Of a DNA stretch of 64,000 nucleotides, positions 7,710 through 22,893 are shown piece after piece. Origin of the DNA: Selenomonadaceae bacterium (GTDB lineage: Bacteria > Bacillota > Negativicutes > Selenomonadales > Selenomonadaceae); contig JAFRRH010000064.1 of the NCBI GenBank assembly GCA_017428215.1, positions 62,001 through 126,000 of the forward strand, given 5' to 3'. The first letter of the stretch is position 1. The number at the start of each line of letters is the position of its first letter. The position numbers were made by a program, and so were the translations under genes. Under the pieces are notes generated by a model. It was not told the origin of the DNA. It saw only the letters and a program-made list of their open reading frames with translations, and did not search any database.

Positions 7710-8948
7710 ATGACGGGGAGCAGAGAAGTCATAACGGGCGGCGACTTTAAGCGCATGGTTGCCGGCGCGTACAGTGAATTTCTTTTAGAATATGAGACGA
7801 TAAACGGACTTAGCGGCGCGGGGACTTTGGCGGGCACGCACATTTTGCGGACAATGGGCGCGGCGGTTATGCCTCTTGCCGACGCTAAAGATGATTCGAT
7901 TGGCGGCTTATCTCGCAGAGTTTCAACGGCGGCGGTTTTCGGTGCGCGTGGAAATGCGGGTGTCGTCTTGGCTCAAATGTTTCGCGGGATAAGTGCGGGG
8001 CTTGTCGGCAAATATGAGGCGACTGGCTCGGAATTCGGCAAGGCTTTTCAATACGGAATTTTATATGCGCAACGAGTTGTCCCCGACGAACCGGAAATTC
8101 CGTTTATCACAGTTGCAAAGGCGGTGGCAAAGGGAGCCTATCACGCAGTACGCGACGGCATGCCGATTGTAGAAATTTTATACAAGGCGATTCAATCGGG
8201 CGAAACGGCGATTAAAGAATTAGAACTTGGCGACGCGGGCGCAAATATCATGTTAAGCTTTTTGAAGGGTTGCTTAAAAGGGCTTGACGGAAATTTTGTT
8301 TCGCCGGCAGTAAGTTTGTCGTTAGGCTTAGGAACGCATAAAAATATGCCAGATCCGCGCAACGATTTAGTGCGTCCGTATTGCATAAGATTGCGCGTTA
8401 AAAATTCCAAAGCTAGCTTACCCGAACTTGAACGGCAAATGCGCGACTTTAGCAGTTTTTCAATCGTGGAGCGTGCACGCGGCGGCTTAGATGTTCACGT
8501 TCACACAGATCACGTTGGAAAAACTTTGGAGCAAGCAATCGGTTGGGGACCGCTCTCGGAAGTCAAGATAACCAACATGAGCGAGGCGCACGCATTACCA
8601 TTCCACGAAGCGTTAATGAAAGTTGCCGCGCTTGCCGTCGCCAAAGATTCTGAAGAGGCGCAAAAACTTCAAGACGCGGGCGCATCAATTTTAGTTTCGG
8701 GGAGCGCGGAGTCGTCGCCGTCTTTAGCGGAAATAATCGGCGCGGCACATTCGGATTTGGCGTCTAGTTATGTTTTAGTCGCGTCAAGCCCCGATTATCA
8801 TTTGGTTTTCAAGCAGGCTAAAAGACTTTTGGACGGGCGTGTCGAATTAGTTTTAGCTAATACGTTTGAAGAAACTTTAACCGCCCTGAAAAAATTTTCA
8901 ACGGGTTTATCCGCGTTGGAGAACGCAAAACTTATGTCGCAATTTTAA
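7710..8948 (+). CDS. DAK2-domain protein, FakA-like fatty-acid kinase/phosphatase family
   Basis: 412 residues. The N-terminal DAK2 (DhaL-like) domain has the nucleotide-site motif GARGNAGVVLAQMFRG near residue 78. The middle domain has HVHTDHVGKTLEQA near 253 and a KITNM segment, both characteristic of FakA-type proteins. FakA proteins phosphorylate fatty acids bound by FakB for phospholipid synthesis; this one is shorter than the usual ~550 residues, so the substrate is less certain. The last ~99 bases have been copied twice into the GT61 array that follows directly. Only 16 bases separate its stop from the first GT61 start, so the array is probably read from this gene's transcript. Confidence 0.8.
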   Translation: MTGSREVITGGDFKRMVAGAYSEFLLEYETINGLSGAGTLAGTHILRTMGAAVMPLADAKDDSIGGLSRRVSTAAVFGARGNAGVVLAQMFRGISAGLVGKYEATGSEFGKAFQYGILYAQRVVPDEPEIPFITVAKAVAKGAYHAVRDGMPIVEILYKAIQSGETAIKELELGDAGANIMLSFLKGCLKGLDGNFVSPAVSLSLGLGTHKNMPDPRNDLVRPYCIRLRVKNSKASLPELERQMRDFSSFSIVERARGGLDVHVHTDHVGKTLEQAIGWGPLSEVKITNMSEAHALPFHEALMKVAALAVAKDSEEAQKLQDAGASILVSGSAESSPSLAEIIGAAHSDLASSYVLVASSPDYHLVFKQAKRLLDGRVELVLANTFEETLTALKKFSTGLSALENAKLMSQF

Positions 8949-8964
8949 GAAGGAGGTTTTACTT

Positions 8965-10559
8965 TTGACAAATATCGACTATCTCTATAATCCGGACGTA
9001 GCCAAAGCTCAATTTAAAAGAAACTACTTTTTAGACAAGAAATTAGGATTCCAAGTTATAGAACACGGCACAATTCTTCCATATAAAGACGTTGCGAAAA
9101 ACGGGAAGTCTCATTGGAATAAAGGAGGAATTGTCGACAGCAAAGGCGGGTTTATCGCGGGTAGTGGTGCACGTACCCGTGTAACAAACGTAGATTATAC
9201 CCCCCCCATGAATCAATCCAACACAGTTCCGAAACCGCTATTTATATAGGGTTCTTTTATATTGCTTGGGGACATTTCATAACCGATAGTATTCGTCATT
9301 TGTGGTTTTTGAAAAGCGAGTTTATGAATGAATTTAAAAATTGCCCGCTTGTGTACATTACATGGCTTGGCGGAAACTTTAATTCGTTCTCTCCAAATTT
9401 TCGTCGCTTGTTGGAAATTTTAGAAGTTGATATTGATAAATGTCGAAAGATTGACCAGCCGACGCAATTTGATAAAATCATACTACCAGATTCCTCTTTT
9501 GGGGCAATAGCTACCAATGAATGTCGAGAAACAATTGACCGTGTAAGAAATTTTGCGTTAAAGAATAGAATGCCTACCTCTAACAAAAAAGTTTATTACT
9601 TCCACGGACGCATTCAAGTTGGCGAAGAACGGCTAGCAGAATATTTTAAGTCTAAAGGATATGAGATTATAAGCCCGCAAAAGTTGACATTAGACGAACA
9701 ATTGAATTGGTTGATAAACTGCGAAAGCTTCGCCTCGACTCTGGGTTCCTGTTCTCATAATTCCGTTTTTCTGCGTGACAGAACGGAGACCATCATCATT
9801 CCGCGTGAAGGGATTTTTGGTAGAGATTATCAGTTGCCATTGGATCAAATCAATTTGGTTAATGCAACTTATATCGATTCTACAATGTCTATCTTTGACA
9901 AAGGCAATAGATACCACTGCTATATAATCAGCGAACAGTTAAAAAAATTCTTTGGCGATAAGTGGAACGGATATGAAGAAGAGGATTTTAAAATCTTTCT
10001 ACAATACGTGAAAACCTCCTTAACTAAAGGTTTTGATGTAGATTCAGGAGAAAAAAATTACTATGATTTTTCGCCTATTCAAGAGTTTCTGGCTCAACTC
10101 CGTAAGTACGAGGATTTAATGGTAGCTTATGGTATGCCACATAGATGGGAATACTTTCGCTCGCTTGTGAGTTATCAAACACATGTAGACACAAAAGCTT
10201 GGAGTTCATGGAACAGCGAAGAGCAAATTAGTAACCCTCTCAATCAAAAGTTTGATATTCAAGCCGTTAAGATAAATTTTCCCGGTCACAAAGTATATTA
10301 TTCCGTTTATTACAACGACAAAGAGGGCTGGTCGGCGGAAGTCCTCTCGCCTGAAATGGCGGGCACTACCGGAAAAGCTAAATCCATTTACGGCATCAGA
10401 ATTCGACTTGACGAGATGGGCGCAAAAGAATTTGATATTCTCTACCGCGTGCACAAGTTCGACGGTACCTGGACGGATTGGGCTAAAAATGACGAGGCGA
10501 TTTACTCGCATGGCGTTAAGTTAAACGCGATTCAGATAAAATTGGAAGCTAAAACTTAA
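8965..10559 (+). CDS. GT61-family glycosyltransferase copy 1, out of frame at a C8 tract (OFF)
   Basis: TTG start after GAAGGAGG. The frame from 8965 stops at 9249 after 94 residues. The rest of the protein continues in another frame that is open from the poly-C tract (9200-9207) to 10559. Adding one C, or removing two, joins both parts into 531 residues collinear with copy 3. The joined protein has an N-terminal region ending in YTPP, a WGH-x-I-x-D motif, and a GT61-type core (KVYYFHGR, GEERLAEYFKSKGYEI, DEQLNWLINCESFASTLGS). About 130 C-terminal residues resemble clostridial hydrophobic-W repeats (YQTHV, GW, AGTTGK). GT61 enzymes decorate glycans such as capsule or LPS. Called OFF but reversible; a sequencing error at the tract is the alternative. 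Confidence 0.75.
9200..9207 (+). repeat. Poly-C tract, 8 C, in GT61 copy 1
   Basis: Eight consecutive C encode the Pro-Pro after Tyr-Thr at about residue 79. Eight leaves the downstream frame closed; nine would open it (YTPPHES instead of YTPPMNQ). Same position as the tracts in copies 2 and 3. Confidence 0.95.
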
Positions 10560-10657
10560 TTTTAGCTGAAACGTTCGAGGAAACTTTAACCGCGCTGAAA
10601 AAATTCTCAACTGGTTTATCCACGTTGGAAAATGCAAAACTCATGTAACAATTTTAA
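10559..10657 (+). repeat. Duplicated 3' end of the DAK2 gene, remnant 1
   Basis: About 99 bases closely matching 8850-8948, the end of the DAK2 gene. The copy is non-functional and ends with an altered codon giving ATGTAA. It lies between the stop of GT61 copy 1 and the ribosome site of copy 2, showing that the amplified unit included the tail of the upstream gene. Confidence 0.9.
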
Positions 10658-10673
10658 AGAGGAGGTTTTATTT

Positions 10674-12270
10674 TTGGTCAATATTAACTATCTTTACAAA
10701 CCGGACGCCGCAAAAGCTCATTTTACTAGTAATTATTTCGTTGACAAGAAATTAGGATTTCAAGTTATCGAAAATGGCATGATCCTCCCACATCGCGAAA
10801 AGAACGACGAAGGTAAAACTAAATTTTTGGGATTCGGTGGCATTGTAAACATCAACGGTGAATTCATAAGAGGAAGTTTCACTTATGCTAATCATGGTGG
10901 AAAATATACCCCCCCCCCGCGAATCAATTCAACACAGCTCGGAAACTGTCATTTATCTCGGAGTTTCTTTTTACAATTGGGGACATTGCATAACGGATAA
11001 TATTCGCCGTGTGTGGTTCTTCAATAGCGACATCTTCAAACAAGAGTTTAAAAATTGTCCGATTGTATATATTTCACATGGAGGGAAGGCTATAGATAAT
11101 CTGCCAAATTTTAGGCGTCTGTTGGAGATTTTAAATGTTGACGTCGACAAACTTCACCTGATATCTCAGCCTACTCGCTTTGAGAAAATAATTCTTCCGG
11201 ACGAATCATTTTTCTTGGACGAAATTATAAAATTTACCAATGAATACCGCGAAGCGATTGAACGAATAAGATATTTTTCGCTTAAGAATCGCACGTCTAC
11301 TTCAAGTGAAAGAATATACTACTTTCACGGAAGGCGGCAAATTGGTGAAGAACGGCTCGCAGAATATTTTAAGTCTAAAGGATACTCTATTGTTCGTCCC
11401 GAAAAACTTCCGCTCGATGAACAGCTCAACCTTTTGATAAATTGTAAAAGTTTTGCCTCAACGTTAGGCTCTACTTCCCATAATTCTATTTTCCTTAGTG
11501 ATGATACAGAATCTATTTTTATTCCACGTGGATTTAATATTCTTAACCCTTATCAGAGTTCACTCAATCAAGTTCATCCTGTTAATGCTAATTACATAGA
11601 TTCGACGCTGTCTATATTTTATGATAATAAACACTTCATGTATATATTAAGTCCACAATTAAAACGATTCTTTGGCGACAAGTGGAATGGCTATGAAGAC
11701 GACGACTTTTTAAATTTTTTGCAATACGTCAAGGATTCAATTGTAGCGGCATTACCTCCAAAGCAATTAAATGCGTATAGCGAGATTTTACAAAATTTTA
11801 TGGATCAACTTCTTAAACGTGAAGATTTGATAGCGGCTTACAATATGCCGACGTATTGGGATACATTTCAACCGTCATCAGGCTATCAGACGCATGTTCA
11901 TAAAAAAGGCTGGGGTGTATGGCAGAAAAAAAATTCAACCAGCGGTTCCACGAAGGATAAATTGGATATTCAAGCCGTTAAGATAAATTTTCCCGGTCAT
12001 AAAGTGTATTACTCCGTTTATTACAACGACAAAGAGGGCTGGTCGGAGGAAGTCCTCTCGCCTGAAATGGTGGGCACTACCGGAAAAGCTAAATCCATTT
12101 ACGGCATCAGAATTCGACTTGACGAGATAGGCGCAAAGGGGTTTGATATTCTCTACCGCGTGCACACATTTGACGATACGTGGACACCTTGGGCTAAAAA
12201 TGGCGAGGCAATTTATTCGTTTGGAGTTAAGTTAAATGCGCTTCAGATAAAACTGGAACCTAAAACTTAA
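10674..12270 (+). CDS. GT61-family glycosyltransferase copy 2, out of frame at a C10 tract (OFF)
   Basis: TTG start at 10674 after AGAGGAGG. The frame ends at 11000 (108 residues); the main body lies in another frame open from before the tract to 12270. Removing one C (10 to 9) restores one 531-residue protein, the same length as repaired copy 1. The body has WGHCITD, IYYFHGRRQIGEERLAEYF, the GT61 core DEQLNLLINCKSFASTLGS with SHNSIFL, and a ChW-like C-terminus with GW and VGTTGK motifs. The last ~100 residues are nearly identical to copy 1 in DNA as well as protein, while the centre is diverged. It is likely co-transcribed with its neighbours. Confidence 0.75.
10909..10918 (+). repeat. Poly-C tract, 10 C, in GT61 copy 2
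   Basis: Ten consecutive C at the position equivalent to the copy 1 tract. Ten gives a shifted frame (YTPPPRINS); nine gives YTPPRES, which matches copy 1 read with nine C. Confidence 0.95.
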
Positions 12271-12368
12271 TTTTAGTTAACACGTTCGAGGAAACTTTAG
12301 CCGCACTGAAAAAATTTTCAACGGGTTTATCTGCGTTGGAAAATGCAAAACTCATGTAACAATTTTAA
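12270..12368 (+). repeat. Duplicated 3' end of the DAK2 gene, remnant 2
   Basis: A second ~99-base copy of 8850-8948, between GT61 copies 2 and 3. It shares the ATGTAA change with remnant 1, so remnants 1 and 2 derive from one another more recently than from the real DAK2 end. Confidence 0.9.
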
Positions 12369-12384
12369 AGAGGAGGTTTTATTT

Positions 12385-13998
12385 TTGGTCAATATTGACT
12401 ATCTTTACAAACCGGACGCCGCAAAAGCTCATTTTACTGATAATTATTTCGTTGACAAGGAATTGGGCTTTAGTGTTGTCGAAAATGGCACGATTCTCCC
12501 TAGAAAATACATTTCACCTGGCAAAAATATCGGTGGTATAATCAACAACGCGGGAAAAAGTATTCAAGGCTCTTTTGTACACAGAGGAGTAACGATTGAT
12601 TATACACCCCCCTCTGCACTTGTTAAATATCGCCCCGAAACTGTCGTTTATTTGGGTGCAGTTCATGACGTTTGGGGACATCAAATTTCTGATAGCGTGA
12701 AGTATCTTTATTTCTTAAAAAGTTTAGTCTTCGAGCGCGAATTCAAAAAGTGTCCACTGGTTTATGTTTCCGTGGTAAATATAGAGAATGTTTTATTGGA
12801 CAGTAGTTACCAAAATTTTAGGCGATTATTGGAAATTTTAGAGATTGATCCCGATAGATTGCAACAAATTAATCAGCCTACAAAGTTCGATAAAATTATT
12901 CTGCCAGACGAATCTTTTTATTACGACACAGAAAAAAATGTCAGACAATTTACTAAAGAATACCGCGAAACTATTGACAGTCTGAAAAACTTTGCAATAA
13001 AAAATTGGATGCCGACTTCAAGCAAGAAGATTTATTATTTTTACGGGCGTAGAGAGCAAATCGGTGAAGAACGTCTGGCAGAATATTTTAAATCTAAGGG
13101 TTACGAGATAGTTTCGCCCGAAAAATTTACGCTTGATGAGCAACTTAATCTTCTAATAAACTGTGAAAATTTTGCGTCAACAATAGGTTCCACTTCTCAC
13201 AATTCTATTTTTCTTCGTGATGGTGTACAAACTATATTTATTCCGCGCATTGCAAAACAATTTAATTCCTACCAATCGGCACTTAATTGCGTTAATTCAA
13301 TTAACGCAATTTACGTGGATTCTACTTTGTCGTTATTTGGTTCTGCTTATGCCGGATATTGTTTCATAGTTAGTAAACAGTTGAAGAAGTTCTTTGGCGA
13401 CAAATTCAATGGCTATGAAGAAAGAGATTTCGAGACTTTTTTGCGATATATTAGCTACTCTAGCGGCAAAGGGTTTACTTGTAGCCAAGTAGCAAAAGAG
13501 TATTACAATGAAGTTTTTGAAGATTTTTTAGAGCAATTAAAATGCAAAAGAAACATGACGGCAAAATACTATATGCCAGCCAATTTGGCTGATTGGCGTC
13601 CGTTGCTTACCTATCAGACACACGTTTCAAGTAAAGGATGGGGCTCGTGGAATAATGAGGATCAAATAAGTAACCCCCTCGAACAAAAGCTACAAATTGA
13701 AGCCGTTAAAATAAATTTTCTAATTTACAAATTATATTATTCGGTTTACTACAACGACAACGAAGGCTGGTCAGAGGAAGTTACCTCGCCTGAAATGGCA
13801 GGTACGACTGGAAAAGTTAAAGCTATCTATGGAATCAGAATTCGCCTTGACGAGGCGGGAGCAAAGAAATTTGATATTCTCTACCGCGTGCACAAGTTTG
13901 ACGACACGTGGACAGCTTGGGCTAAAAATGGTGAGGTGATTTACTCGCATGGCGTTAAATTAAATGCAATTCAAATAAAATTGGAACCTAAAACTTAA
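12385..13998 (+). CDS. GT61-family glycosyltransferase copy 3, intact (ON), with ChW-like C-terminal repeats
   Basis: 537 residues from TTG 12385, placed 8 bases after AGAGGAGG. It has the same order as copies 1 and 2: an N-terminal region with YTPPSA across a C6 tract, VWGHQISDS near residue 100, a GT61 core around 215-300 (KIYYFYGR, GEERLAEYFKSKGYEIV, DEQLNLLINCENFASTIGS, SHNSIFLRD), and a C-terminal segment of about 130 residues with three ChW-like units (YQTHVSSKGWGSW, NEGWSEEV with AGTTGK, DTWTAWAKNG). GT61 transferases add sugars to surface polysaccharide or protein glycans. No signal peptide is seen, so it probably acts in the cytoplasm. Its stop is 13 bases from the prfB start. Confidence 0.8.
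   Translation: MVNIDYLYKPDAAKAHFTDNYFVDKELGFSVVENGTILPRKYISPGKNIGGIINNAGKSIQGSFVHRGVTIDYTPPSALVKYRPETVVYLGAVHDVWGHQISDSVKYLYFLKSLVFEREFKKCPLVYVSVVNIENVLLDSSYQNFRRLLEILEIDPDRLQQINQPTKFDKIILPDESFYYDTEKNVRQFTKEYRETIDSLKNFAIKNWMPTSSKKIYYFYGRREQIGEERLAEYFKSKGYEIVSPEKFTLDEQLNLLINCENFASTIGSTSHNSIFLRDGVQTIFIPRIAKQFNSYQSALNCVNSINAIYVDSTLSLFGSAYAGYCFIVSKQLKKFFGDKFNGYEERDFETFLRYISYSSGKGFTCSQVAKEYYNEVFEDFLEQLKCKRNMTAKYYMPANLADWRPLLTYQTHVSSKGWGSWNNEDQISNPLEQKLQIEAVKINFLIYKLYYSVYYNDNEGWSEEVTSPEMAGTTGKVKAIYGIRIRLDEAGAKKFDILYRVHKFDDTWTAWAKNGEVIYSHGVKLNAIQIKLEPKT
12607..12612 (+). repeat. Shortened poly-C tract, 6 C, in GT61 copy 3
   Basis: The tract reads ACACCCCCCT, in frame as Thr-Pro-Pro. It is interrupted by an A and only six long, so it should slip much less than the C8 and C10 tracts of copies 1 and 2. 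Confidence 0.9.
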
Positions 13999-14011: not shown

Positions 14012-15119
14012 ATGCTGGAAGACAGAAAAGTAGAGCTAACTGCTCTGCGCGACAAGCTGAACGAAATGGGGAATTCACTTTGACATTGCTCGCAAAGAGG
14101 AAAAAATTGCCGAGCTGGAATATAAAATGGGTGAACCAACTTTTTGGGACAATCCCGACGCCGCGCAGAAAATTACGCAGGAATTAAACGACGTTAAATC
14201 TGGTATCGAGACCTATAAAAACCTCGTGGCTAAATTTGACGACGCGCAGATTTTATTGGAGCTTGCGTTGGAAGAACAAGACGATTCACAGGAAACAGAC
14301 ATTGCGGCAGAAATTTCAGCTATTGAAAAAGGCTTGGAAAATTTGCGGCTTGAAATAATGTTGAGTGAACCTTACGACGCCAACAACGCGATTTTAACAT
14401 TACACGCGGGCGCAGGCGGCACAGAGGCGCAAGATTGGACGCAAATGCTTTTAAGAATGTATGTTCGTTGGGCGGAACGTCACGGCTTTGAAGTCGAGAC
14501 GGTTGACTTGTTACCAGGCGACGAGGCGGGCGTTAAATCGGCTACGGTTTTCGTTAAAGGTCACAACGCTTACGGCTATCTTAAGTCTGAAAAGGGCATT
14601 CATAGATTGGTTAGGATTTCGCCGTTCGATTCAAATGCGCGGCGTCATACGTCGTTCAGTGCGTGCGACATTATGCCTGAAATTGATGACGCGGTTGAAG
14701 TCGATATAAATATGGCGGACGTTCGAGTTGATACTTACAGGGCGAGCGGCGCAGGCGGTCAGCATATTAACAAAACTTCCTCTGCCGTTCGCATGACGCA
14801 TTTACCAACGGGAATTGTAGTTCAATGTCAAAATGAGCGTTCGCAAATTCAAAATCGCGAGCGTTGCTTAAAAATGCTCCGCGCTAAACTTTTCGAGCTG
14901 GAACTTGAAAAAAAAGAGCAAGAAATTGCCGGGCTTGAAGGTGACTTAAAGAAAATCGAGTGGGGCAGTCAAATTCGCTCCTACGTCTTTCAACCTTACA
15001 AATTAGTTAAAGATTTGCGCACGGGCGAGGAAACCGGCAATGTTCAAGCTGTCATGGACGGCGAAATTGATTCGTTTATCCGCGCCTTTCTTGCCGCTAA
15101 AGCCAATGTCAAAATTTAA
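14012..15119 (+). CDS. prfB: Peptide chain release factor 2, with programmed +1 frameshift
   Basis: ATG 14012 follows AAAGGAG. The zero frame runs 23 codons to an in-frame UGA at 14081-14083, preceded by CTT and followed by C. The +1 frame starts with GAC at 14082 and is open to 15119, giving a product of 368 residues, the normal RF2 length. RF2 recognises UGA and UAA stops. The stop-recognition tripeptide SPF (in RISPFDSNARR) and the peptidyl-tRNA hydrolysis motif GGQ (in GAGGQHINKTSS) are present. Low RF2 lets ribosomes pause at the UGA and shift, which autoregulates synthesis. It sits directly downstream of the GT61 array. Confidence 0.95.
14066..14084 (+). promoter_or_regulatory. RF2 programmed frameshift site
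   Basis: The slippery codon CTT (14078-14080) is followed by TGA C. The stimulatory internal ribosome-like sequence is GGGG at 14068-14071, six bases before CTT. In the textbook site (AGGGGG-TAT-CTT-TGA-C) the gap is three bases, so this site has one extra codon between stimulator and shift site. Confidence 0.85.
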
Positions 15120-17925: not shown

Positions 17926-19179
17926 ATGATTCATGTTTGTTTTTGTTTTCATGACAGAACAGGCAATTACGCGAAATTCGCGGGCACGGCAATGCTCTCA
18001 ATCTTTGAAAACACCAAATCTTCGGTTACAGTCCATATTCTCCACGACGACACTTTAACTGCCGACAATCTGGATAAATTCTCTTACATTGCCGGTCGCT
18101 ACGGTCAAACTGTGAGATTTCATAACGTCGAAAAACTCTGTCCAGATAAAATAAAAGAATATATAAGCTACGTTCCGTCTATCAAAAACTCAAGGGTCAG
18201 CGTGGGGGCGTTTTATCGTCTCATGCTTTCTAAAGTTCTGCCGTCGAATATTAATAAAATTATTTACTTCGACGCAGATGTTATCGTCAATCTTGATATA
18301 AAAGAACTTTGGCAGATTGAATTAGGCGACAAACCATTGGGAGCCGTTCCTGAAAGCGTTGCCTCTTCCGAAATGTTTAAATCTTCCAGAGGCTACGCCA
18401 TAGAAAAATATCTGATTAAATCTGGCTTAGTTAAATTTGAGGATTATTTTAATTCGGGCGTCATGGCATTGAATTTGGATTACCTGCGACAAAACGACGA
18501 ACTTTTAACGAGCGGCGTGAAGTTCAGAGGGGAAAATAAACAGTGCAGTGCTTTCGACCAAGACATTTTGAATTATCTTTTTGCCAACGATTATCTTAAG
18601 TTGCCTGGACAGTTTGACCAGTTTATAAGAAGTGAACGGCGCAAAGAGGATATGAAGTCCAAAATTCGTCAGGTGATTTATCATTACACTAAAAATACTC
18701 TTCAACTGAATTCCGATGATATTTTTAATCAGTTGTGGCTTAGTTATTTTATGCTCACACCGTGGTTTAATACGGACGCAATCGGGAAACTTTATGCAAG
18801 CTTTCAACAAGCTCGTAACAATTTTAAAAGTTACATATCTAACGCCTCTGCTTTTATGTCGAATAGAGCGCGGGTGTTTTTTGTTGAGCCGCAAAAACTA
18901 AGTGCCGTAAAGGAAGCTTTTTCTATACGCGACGACGAGGAAGTTATTATCGCCGAAAACCAAGAATCTCTTAAAAATTTAGCTAAGTCAATGTTAGAAT
19001 CTCGCGGCAAAAAAATTTTCTATATCATGACGGAAAAAGTTTTGGGTAAAAAATTTCCGTTTAAACAGCTGGCTAGGATTAATTTTGTTGAGGGCAGAGA
19101 TTTCATAAAAGGCTGGGAGATTTTATCCGACGCTAAGGGCACGCCGTTTGATTCTTTCCCATTTATTCAAGCGATGTAA
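17926..19179 (+). CDS. GT8-family glycosyltransferase, copy 1
   Basis: 417 residues, ATG after AAAGGAG, overlapping the DUF5693 operon with a 4-base gap. The N-terminal GT8 domain opens with MIHVCFCFHD and contains HILHDDTLT near residue 45 and a metal-binding DxD in YFDADVIVNLDI (about 110). It also has FNSGVMALNL near 170 and a DQDILNYLF segment near 205. GT8 enzymes retain sugar configuration and act in LPS or cell-surface glycan assembly. A C-terminal module of about 110 residues (FFVEPQKL onward) is shared by all four copies and unknown to me. First of four tandem paralogues. Confidence 0.85.
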   Translation: MIHVCFCFHDRTGNYAKFAGTAMLSIFENTKSSVTVHILHDDTLTADNLDKFSYIAGRYGQTVRFHNVEKLCPDKIKEYISYVPSIKNSRVSVGAFYRLMLSKVLPSNINKIIYFDADVIVNLDIKELWQIELGDKPLGAVPESVASSEMFKSSRGYAIEKYLIKSGLVKFEDYFNSGVMALNLDYLRQNDELLTSGVKFRGENKQCSAFDQDILNYLFANDYLKLPGQFDQFIRSERRKEDMKSKIRQVIYHYTKNTLQLNSDDIFNQLWLSYFMLTPWFNTDAIGKLYASFQQARNNFKSYISNASAFMSNRARVFFVEPQKLSAVKEAFSIRDDEEVIIAENQESLKNLAKSMLESRGKKIFYIMTEKVLGKKFPFKQLARINFVEGRDFIKGWEILSDAKGTPFDSFPFIQAM

Positions 19180-19191
19180 AGGGGTGAGTTT

Positions 19192-20424
19192 ATGATTCAT
19201 GTTTGTTTTTGCTTTCACGATAAGACGGGCAGTTACGCAAAATTCGCGGGCACGGCTATGCTTTCGCTCTTTGAAAATACCAATTCGGAAGTCACGGTTC
19301 ATATCATCCACGACAACACTTTGACGCCTGCTAATCGAGAAAAGTTTTCTTACATTTCCAATCACTATAAACAGTCTATAGTATTTTATAATCTCGACGA
19401 ACTTTGTCCGGATAAAATTGCTATGATTATAAAGTTGGTTCCGGAAGTGGAAACTGCAAAAGTTACTGTGGGTGCGTTTTATAAATTATTAATTCCGCAA
19501 GTCCTTCCTAACGAAATTAGCAAAGCTATCTTTATCGACCCTGACACCATAATTAATTTGGATATAAACGAACTTTGGAAAATAGACCTTGCCGATAAAG
19601 TTCTTGCCGTCGTTCCCGGTACAGAAAACGGAACTGATTGCAGAAAATCTTTCCGCTTGTGCAGAGAGGGCATTGTTAGTAGTTTTGATTATTTTAATAC
19701 CGGCGTCATGCTGATGAACTTAGATATTTTGCGTGGCGAGGAACAAACTATAATGCAGGGGATCAAGTTTAGAGGTGAAAATCCCGCGCACACATTTTTG
19801 GAGCAAACCGTTTTGAACTATTGCTTTTCTAAACGAACTATAAAGCTGAGGGTGCGATTTAACTTGTTCGTTAAGAATGCGCGTAAATATAAGAACTTAG
19901 ACTTCAGCGGAAAAATTCTTCATTATGTAGACGGTTCGTCGCGAATGGGGCTTGATATGAACGACTTCTCCAATCGTTTATGGATGAAGTATTTTATTAA
20001 GACTCCTTGGTTTAACGTGGAAACATTCGGGCGGCTTTATACTAGCTTAAAAGAAATCCGCAATGATTTAAAAGATTCCGCCTTAAATCTCTCTACGATT
20101 GTGTTAGGTAAAGCTCGCGTCTTTTTTATTGCCCCTGAAAAATTAGAGAACATGAAGCAAATTTTTTCCATAGGCGACGACGAAAAAATTATTATCGCCG
20201 AAGATAAAAAGTCTCTACATCAATTAATCTCCACGATGAAAACTTCTAAAGATACAAGCGTAGTTTTTGTCACGACGGAGAAACTTCTGAAGAGAGATTT
20301 CCCCTTCGACCGACTTAATAAAGAAGGCTTTACGGAGGGCAAAGATTTTATCAAAGCTTTTGAGTTCTTACCTAATGCTGAAAACGTCCCGTCCGCGTCG
20401 TATGCTCTTATCGAGGCATTGTAA
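19192..20424 (+). CDS. GT8-family glycosyltransferase, copy 2
   Basis: 410 residues, ATG 12 bases after copy 1, with AAAGGGGTG as ribosome site. The first ~45 residues are nearly the same as copy 1 (MIHVCFCFHDKTG, HIIHDNTLT). The DxD site reads FIDPDTIINLDI, so it is intact as D-P-D. FNTGVMLMNLD and the shared C-terminal module (FFIAPEKLENMKQIF onward) are present. The middle is well diverged from copy 1, as expected if acceptor or donor specificity differs. It is likely transcribed with copies 1, 3 and 4. Confidence 0.85.
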   Translation: MIHVCFCFHDKTGSYAKFAGTAMLSLFENTNSEVTVHIIHDNTLTPANREKFSYISNHYKQSIVFYNLDELCPDKIAMIIKLVPEVETAKVTVGAFYKLLIPQVLPNEISKAIFIDPDTIINLDINELWKIDLADKVLAVVPGTENGTDCRKSFRLCREGIVSSFDYFNTGVMLMNLDILRGEEQTIMQGIKFRGENPAHTFLEQTVLNYCFSKRTIKLRVRFNLFVKNARKYKNLDFSGKILHYVDGSSRMGLDMNDFSNRLWMKYFIKTPWFNVETFGRLYTSLKEIRNDLKDSALNLSTIVLGKARVFFIAPEKLENMKQIFSIGDDEKIIIAEDKKSLHQLISTMKTSKDTSVVFVTTEKLLKRDFPFDRLNKEGFTEGKDFIKAFEFLPNAENVPSASYALIEAL

Positions 20425-20458
20425 AAAATTTTTCCGCTAAATTAAAGGAGTGATTTTA

Positions 20459-21676
20459 ATGATCCATGTCTGCTTTGCGCTCAGGGACGAGACGGGCTAT
20501 TCTGCAAAATTCGTTGGTACGGCAATGCTTTCTATGTTTGAAAATATCTTTAAGCCGCTCCCGTCGATAACAGTGCATATTCTGCACGACAATACCTTAA
20601 CAGCAGACAATCGCAGTAAATTTTCTTATCTGGCTGGTCGTTACGGGCAACAAGTCAAGTTCTATAACGTCGTGGAATTGTGCGCAGATAAAATCGAGGA
20701 AATTAATACAATCTTTCCTAGTGCCGACGATATACCTTCACAAGGGGCGGCGTTTTACAAATTTTTAATTATGCAAGTTCTTCCGCCTGACATTGAACGG
20801 GCAATTTACATTGAATCCAATACTATCGTCAATACGGATATAAGCGAACTTTGGCGTATTAAACTCGGAGGCAATGCGCTCGGTGTAGTTCCCGCGCTTG
20901 ATATTGGTTATGACCTTCATACGCAAGATAAAATCGTCGCTGACGGCTTTGTTCAACAGGAAGATTATTTTAATTCGGGCGTTTTGCTGATGAATTTGCG
21001 TTTTCTGCGCTTCAAAGAAACGGCTATACCAGAGGGCATGAAGTTTGCGCTCAAGCATAGATATTTTAACCTTTTGGATCAAACCATATTGAATTATTGT
21101 TTCTCGCTTCAAACTGTCAAATTGCCGGCGAAGTTTAATCAGTTCGTTAGTTGGGCTAGACGTAGAAACGAGACCGTAGGGAGGAAAATTTATCAGTACA
21201 CGGACTACGCCCTCCGTCTGGAAACGAGTGAGCCGTTTAATTCACTTTGGCTGGAATATTTTTCAAAGACGCCTTGGTTTGACATCTCTACAATCGGCAA
21301 GCTTTACGAAGACTTACAGCAAATTCATATCGCCTTAAAAAAATCAATGGCAAATATTTCGCTGGTAACTAATAATAAAATTCGCGCCTTTTGCGTGATG
21401 CCTAATTACGTTGACGAACTTAAAAAGATTTTTAATGTTCGCAACGACGAAGAAATTATTCTGCTTGAAAATCGCAAATCTCTACAAAAATTAGCTGACA
21501 CCATGAAAGAATCTCAAGGCAAAAAAATTTTCTTCATAATGGCGCAAAATTTCCCGTTCCGCACTTTAACCAAAGCCGGATTTGTTTTCGGCAGAGATTT
21601 TCTTAACGCTATGGAATTTTTATCTGAAGAGCAAGGCGTTTCTTTAAATTCATATAAACTTATTCAAAGTATCTGA
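20459..21676 (+). CDS. GT8-family glycosyltransferase, copy 3, DxD motif degenerate
   Basis: 405 residues from ATG 20459, which follows AAAGGAG at 8-base spacing. The frame also has a GTG at 20450, but the family start MIHVCF fits 20459. Overall layout matches copies 1 and 2, with HILHDNTLT, FNSGVLLMNL and DQTILNYCF. The metal site is altered: where the others have DxD, this copy reads YIESNTIVNTDI, so both aspartates are replaced (E-S-N). In GT8 enzymes this motif binds the metal and sugar nucleotide, so activity may be lost or changed. The C-terminal module is slightly shorter. Confidence 0.82.
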   Translation: MIHVCFALRDETGYSAKFVGTAMLSMFENIFKPLPSITVHILHDNTLTADNRSKFSYLAGRYGQQVKFYNVVELCADKIEEINTIFPSADDIPSQGAAFYKFLIMQVLPPDIERAIYIESNTIVNTDISELWRIKLGGNALGVVPALDIGYDLHTQDKIVADGFVQQEDYFNSGVLLMNLRFLRFKETAIPEGMKFALKHRYFNLLDQTILNYCFSLQTVKLPAKFNQFVSWARRRNETVGRKIYQYTDYALRLETSEPFNSLWLEYFSKTPWFDISTIGKLYEDLQQIHIALKKSMANISLVTNNKIRAFCVMPNYVDELKKIFNVRNDEEIILLENRKSLQKLADTMKESQGKKIFFIMAQNFPFRTLTKAGFVFGRDFLNAMEFLSEEQGVSLNSYKLIQSI

Positions 21677-21689
21677 AAGGATGGATTCT

Positions 21690-22893
21690 ATGATTCACGT
21701 TTGTTTTTGTTTTAATGATAAAACGGGACGATTTTCAAAATTTGCGGGCACGGCTATGCTTTCTGTTCTTGAAAACGTAAATACCCCCACTATTACCGTT
21801 GATTACCGTTCATATCCTGCACGACAACACCTTGACGACCGATAACCGCGAAAAATTTATGTACTTAGCGGGACGTTACGGTCAGCTCGTGAAATTTTAT
21901 AACGTTGAGGAACTTTGTGCGGACAGAATTGCAGAAATACGCAAATATTTTCCAAATTCTGATAAAACGCATTTTACTATCGGTACGTTCTATCGAGTTT
22001 TTATCCCCTTTGTCCTTCCTGCGACTATAGAAAAAGCAATTTACCTCGATTGCGATATTATCGCTACACTGGATATAAACGAGTTTTGGCAAATAGATCT
22101 CGCCGACAAGCCGCTCGGCGTTATGTCTAGTGCCCCTATTAGCTTAAAAGGTATTGTAAAAGAAGAAGATTATTTTAATGCCGGTGTCTTGCTGATGAAT
22201 TTAAATATCTTGCGTAAAGAAGAAGAAACTGTAAAAACCGGAATGAAATTTTTTTCGGAAAATCCCCAACATCTAAGATGGGGAGATCAGTGTCTTCTGA
22301 ATTACTGTTTTGCAACACGTACTATGAAATTACCCCAAAAATTCAACTCTTATATACATTATGAACGAAATCAAAAAGCATCTCCTGGAAGAAAAATTTA
22401 TCATTATATAGGCGATACATTATTTAATGGTATGGATACATCTGACGCTTTTAATCGGCTGTGGATGAGCTATTTTATTCGTACGCCGTTTTTCGATGAG
22501 GATTCAATGGGCAGATTGTATAATGCTTTTTTGCAAGTCCATAGCGATTTGAAGAATTCTGCATTAAAGCTTTCCGCGATTATGTCGGGCAAAACTCGTG
22601 CGTTTTTCGTGGAACCCGCAAAAGTTGATTTCATGAAGAAAATTTTTTCGATATGCGACGACGAAATAATTATCCCTGCCGAAAACGAACAGTCCATTCA
22701 AAAGCTAACCGAAGCTATGAAACTCCACAAGGGCAAATGTGTCTTCTTTGTCATGACGGAAAAATTATCTAATAAAAACTTTCCATTCGATTTATTGACT
22801 AAAGAGGGGTTCATCGAAGCTAAAGATTTTGTAAAAGGCTGGCAATATTTAGATTCGCCGTTAAATTCTTATTCTCTCATTCAAGCAATGTGA
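21690..22893 (+). pseudogene. GT8-family glycosyltransferase, copy 4, frame-broken by a 10-bp tandem duplication
   Basis: The ATG at 21690 follows AAAGGATG and begins MIHVCFCFND like the other copies, but the frame stops at 21843 after 51 residues. The rest lies in another frame to 22893. The break coincides with a tandem repeat: ATTACCGTT at 21792-21800 and again at 21802-21810, period 10. Deleting one 10-base copy restores TITVHILHDN, the sequence expected from the family, and gives a 397-residue protein. The DxD site is intact (YLDCDIIATLDI), as is the C-terminal module, so the gene seems recently disabled. It ends at the array terminator. Confidence 0.82.
21792..21811 (+). repeat. 10-bp tandem duplication that breaks GT8 copy 4
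   Basis: ATTACCGTTG followed by ATTACCGTTC. One unit encodes Ile-Thr-Val at the position conserved in all four GT8 copies; the extra unit shifts the frame by +10. Confidence 0.9.

Follow-up and report, generated by a model that had tools for sequence, protein, structure and literature searches.

Candidate slipped-strand switches in tandem GT61-ChW glycosyltransferase genes of an uncultured Selenomonadales genus

Three tandem genes encoding family 61 glycosyltransferases (GT61) with ChW repeats lie within a 64-kb stretch of the genome of an uncultured Selenomonadales bacterium (the window). In two of them the reading frame is broken at a run of cytosines. We judge it probable (about 0.88), from comparisons of sequence, that slipped-strand mispairing makes copies 1 and 2 phase-variable, as contingency genes. 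We prefer this reading because other species have C7–C11 at the same site, some in frame and some not, because tract-free copies are almost never broken, because near-identical paralogues in one genome differ mainly in tract length, because purifying selection continues past the break, and because long poly-G/C runs are in excess throughout the genus. Several features that mark contingency loci were found: an over-long tract, a placement at which a change of one unit either way would toggle the gene, and both on and off lengths among orthologues and paralogues. Slipped-strand contingency had already been proposed by a sequence-only reading of the window, and relatives, selection, paralogues and the genus-wide run excess now support it. 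We infer that the genes switch reversibly in cells, with an effect on surface sugars; any acceptor or sugar assigned to the enzyme would likewise be a prediction.

The array is enclosed by a FakA/DAK2-like gene and prfB (Table 1). The tandem unit is ~1709 bp long and takes in the last ~100 bp of the FakA-like gene. This tail recurs before copies 2 and 3 in a self-comparison (8847 to 10556 and 8847 to 12267), and the matches to it at 10544–10654 and 12255–12365 are 81% identical. Each copy has a TTG start (8965, 10674 and 12385) with AGGAGG ahead of it. All three copies matched Glyco_transf_61 (PF04577) above the curated Pfam cut-off of 27 bits, with scores of 30.8, 40.5 and 37.7 bits, in agreement with the GT61 identity first assigned to them; Pfam also detected C-terminal ChW repeats, which had been missed. 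The repeats (10190–10559, 11890–12270 and 13620–13998) are fused to a GT61 enzyme that has no obvious signal peptide. ChW repeats are known from secreted clostridial proteins. A structure search for the GT61-ChW enzyme found no solved relative, and its putative role is read from the family names alone.

Table 1. Features of the GT61-ChW array and poly-G promoter tracts elsewhere in the same genome
Feature	Position	Strand	Basis
DAK2/FakA-like (YloV-type) gene, upstream neighbour	7710–8948	+	Pfam Dak2, FakA-like_M/_C
GT61-ChW copy 1, frame broken: 94 aa to the stop at 9249, catalytic frame open to 10559	8965–10559	+	
C8 tract, copy 1	9200–9207	+	
Duplicated FakA-like gene tail; tandem unit 2 begins	10556–10657	+	self-comparison
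GT61-ChW copy 2, frame broken: 108 aa to the stop at 11000, catalytic frame open to 12270	10674–12270	+	
C10 tract, copy 2	10909–10918	+	
Duplicated FakA-like gene tail; tandem unit 3 begins	12267–12368	+	self-comparison
GT61-ChW copy 3, frame open (537 aa)	12385–13998	+	
C6 tract, copy 3, homologous codons, in frame, probably stable	12607–12612	+	
prfB (release factor 2), downstream neighbour	14012–15119	+	sequence; synteny
TTGACA-polyG-ATAAT tracts	L009:6093, L012:3571, L015:10743, L026:3673, L022:3540		

In all three copies the C run lies directly 3' of a conserved Tyr codon (TAT ACC.. or TAT ACA..), at residue ~74–79 and N-terminal to the GT61 domain. The three runs reported by the sequence-only reading are all present, and the frame is broken in copies 1 and 2 and open in copy 3, as it had stated. 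Reading through the tract yields 531 aa for each of copies 1 and 2, the length given for the repaired genes, and the catalytic frames of both are free of stops to their ends; the claim that the breaks lie at the tracts only, in genes otherwise intact, holds. The proposal that all three runs are switches is supported for copies 1 and 2 (C8 and C10). Copy 3 is probably locked on and no third switch, since C6 is under the length normally regarded as hypermutable; a survey of Campylobacter used a tract cut-off of 7 (PMC6321876).

The site was then compared across 66 genomes of the genus, one per species (~65 related species). Copy 3 had a match in 61 of these, in many cases to the ChW part only, and the homologous tract site could be read in 57 GT61 copies. 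Runs of C7–C11 occupy the identical Tyr-Thr-Pro-Pro codons in many species. Where the site held C7 or longer, 10 copies were off and 8 on, versus 1 off and 38 on for C6 or shorter (Fisher P = 9e-6, 57 copies), a value that, like the other Fisher P values, somewhat overstates the evidence because related copies are not fully independent. The off copies are spread over eight species, the window's own included. A FakA-like gene and/or prfB adjoins the GT61 gene in about a dozen species, and at this conserved locus the tract is absent or is C7, C8, C9, C10 or C11, with both states represented. In several GT61 genes of more distant kinship the frame is broken at a poly-G tract in another part of the gene (G008, G048, G005 and G051), such that most frame breaks in the GT61 family occur at G/C tracts. 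The GT61 tree, whose deep branches are weak, needs about 12 tract gains or losses, at least 4 of them on well-supported branches, which suggests that turnover of the tract is likely; the idea that the tract is a single inherited feature was rejected on the same count.

A second tract family is found in genes for DUF1919 proteins. Three adjacent DUF1919 genes in the window's genome (G000:C45; L031:3600-6000) carry tracts of G10, G8 and G13, all out of frame, and their flanks are 91–97% identical (4–12 differences each, over 136 nt on the upstream side and 151 nt on the downstream side). Tract length in this trio changes faster than its surroundings; this within-genome evidence concerns the DUF1919 family and not the GT61 copies of the window. 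Across the genus, DUF1919 genes whose tract is at least 7 long were off in 15 cases and on in 7, and those without a tract were off in none and on in 15 (P = 2e-5). The off share of tract-bearing copies pooled over the two families, 25/40, is compatible with the two thirds expected under tract-length drift.

Long runs are abundant in the genome as a whole, which comprises 2.82 Mb and is 88.6% complete; the window has a GC content of 44%. Exact C-run counts on both strands of the 2.82 Mb were 50 for C6, 8 for C7, 13 for C8, 12 for C9, 14 for C10 and 1 each for C11 and C13, with no fall in number from C7 to C10. Runs of 8 or more thus total 41, against about 1.5 expected from a geometric tail fitted to C6 and C7. 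The median number of runs of 9 or more was 15 in the 66 genomes of the genus versus 3 in 123 other genomes of the family, from sister genera (Mann-Whitney P = 4e-18), a comparison of raw run counts regardless of genome size, GC content and relatedness. Most sister genera are at the background level. The highest count of all, 88 C/G runs of 9 or more, was in another genome of the same genus (G018, 100% complete). In G111, from another genus, 15 such runs all lie on the same strand. Five genomes (G119–G122 and G174, from sister genera g13 and g14 and one from g23) contain 17–26 long C/G runs, and the trait is therefore not confined to one genus.

Within the window's genome, 28 of the 41 runs (68%) lie inside long reading frames, 16 of them off and 12 on, and there is one further short case. 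Strict codon-score thresholds left many tracts unclassified, and these calls were made instead by an open-frame test, which may take adjacent genes on the same strand for one broken gene. The genes that carry tracts encode GT61, GT2, GT92 and GT11 enzymes, three FkbM methyltransferases, a TylF-type methyltransferase, a hexapeptide transferase, the three DUF1919 proteins and two acyltransferases, one of which is split at the tract into halves that match successive parts of one Pfam model. Another (L010:2143-3921, minus strand) encodes a methyltransferase-kinase-coiled-coil protein with an in-frame G9 tract and a domain order like that of WbdD, the O-antigen chain terminator. Judged from domain names, 19 of the 28 tract genes are of surface-glycan type; the others are unknown, regulatory or of other kinds.

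Homopolymers are where indel errors are commonest, and one of the relatives is a metagenome assembly, so errors of sequencing or assembly have to be considered. The real tracts would then be in frame and all copies intact. We regard this as very unlikely. In the same loci, A/T runs of 8 or more were mostly in frame (41 on and 8 off, several of the off cases resembling gene borders), whereas G/C runs were on in 12 cases and off in 17. Error cannot produce the genus-wide excess of long runs, nor can it make the tracts of near-identical copies differ by as many as five bases, although individual lengths could be wrong. A still smaller chance is given to decay, in which copies 1 and 2 would be early pseudogenes and their frameshifts ordinary disabling mutations. 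Both copies are off in the assembly and an intact copy adjoins them, as decay would have it, but neither contains another stop or shift. Past the break, substitutions between these two off copies fall mostly at third codon positions (dN/dS about 0.2), and the tract is in frame at the same codon site in other species.

Tracts of the same kind also occur outside reading frames. In the window's genome several intergenic tracts separate a good −35 box from a good −10 box (TTGACA...G8-G10..ATAAT); flanks are shared by four of these tracts, and at least two precede genes with RTX-type repeats identified by Pfam. TTGACA-G7+-ATAAT promoters were found in 36 of the 66 genomes of the genus and a reversed-pattern control gave none; these promoters usually have a 19-nt spacer and a run of 9–10 G. 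In Neisseria, poly-G/C runs lie inside the reading frames of lgt and pgl glycosyltransferase genes, and in porA/opc-type genes a homopolymer separates the −35 box from the −10 box; the poly-G promoters described here resemble the porA pattern. Recoding, in which transcriptional slippage or ribosomal frameshifting gives some full-length enzyme and the tract tunes its level, is the least probable account: long homopolymers can promote slippage and recoding could add to switching at the DNA level, but homologues show offsets both ways as well as in-frame tracts, unlike a fixed recoding signal, and promoter-spacer tracts fall outside any such account.

Slipped-strand mispairing would act on the poly-C at the Pro-Pro site that separates the N-terminal segment from the GT61 catalytic domain, and this tract would gain or lose C during replication. 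One length in three would keep the frame, and the others would yield only a short product, here of 94 and 108 aa, lacking the catalytic domain. In the present assembly copies 1 and 2 would be off, and copy 3, its C6 too short for frequent slipping, would give constant activity. Two independent switches and one fixed copy could give up to four enzyme combinations that act on a surface glycan. The GT61 locus would belong to a phasome common to the genus, which in this genome comprises several promoter tracts and about 28 intragenic ones. Hypermutability through loss of MutS or MutL was considered and rejected, as both genes are present in the window's genome (MutS_I at G000:C42:64028 and MutL_C at G000:C42:52391) and in most of the genus. 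Their retention suggests that slip rates may be below those of Campylobacter or Helicobacter.

The mechanism itself is already known. Poly-G/C tracts in Campylobacter peak at a length of 9–10, lie in ORFs in 77% of cases and affect 5–81 candidate genes per strain (PMC6321876). The window's genome is alike in that lengths peak at 8–10, most tracts (28/41, 68%) are in ORFs and tens of them (41) occur per genome; in both, surface-modification genes are involved and the off share is near neutral drift. It is unlike Campylobacter in belonging to another phylum and in keeping MutS and MutL. We know of no tandem GT61-ChW array in Campylobacter. Neisseria (for its phasome see PMC5953494) shares both the poly-G/C tracts in glycosyltransferase frames and the homopolymers between −35 and −10 boxes, and differs in that some promoter tracts here are upstream of RTX-repeat-like proteins and the organism is an uncultured Selenomonadales bacterium. 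Homopolymer-tract genes of Helicobacter canadensis (PMC2823697) also belong to a different phylum. A literature search for homopolymer phase variation in Negativicutes, Selenomonas or Veillonella found no report, which is weak evidence of absence given that preprints and most subscription papers were outside its scope; the case presented here thus adds to an established mechanism, on the scale seen in Campylobacter, from an order for which no report was found.

Campylobacter, Neisseria and other pathogens are the best-known users of slippery on/off switches. To our knowledge the window's genus contains no pathogens. We think it likely that this genus, uncultured and equipped with mismatch repair, has a phasome of Campylobacter scale that acts on the frames of glycan enzymes (tandem GT61 and DUF1919) and on promoters of RTX-like genes, and by which each population would reshuffle its surface coat in a combinatorial way. 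Individual cells of such organisms may then carry different surface sugars, which bears on interactions with phage, the immune system and the community. Many of the tract genes will be called broken or split by standard gene callers.

Two further observations concern the surroundings of the array. The start of prfB (14012–14084) contains the in-frame TGA customary for this gene, at a site of programmed +1 frameshifting (CTT TGA C), and the ORF list begins the gene late, at 14127. Farther downstream (17926–22893) are four tandem genes for family-8 glycosyltransferases, about 45% identical and free of long C/G tracts; the N-terminal 36 aa of the last one are seemingly in another frame (21690–21800).
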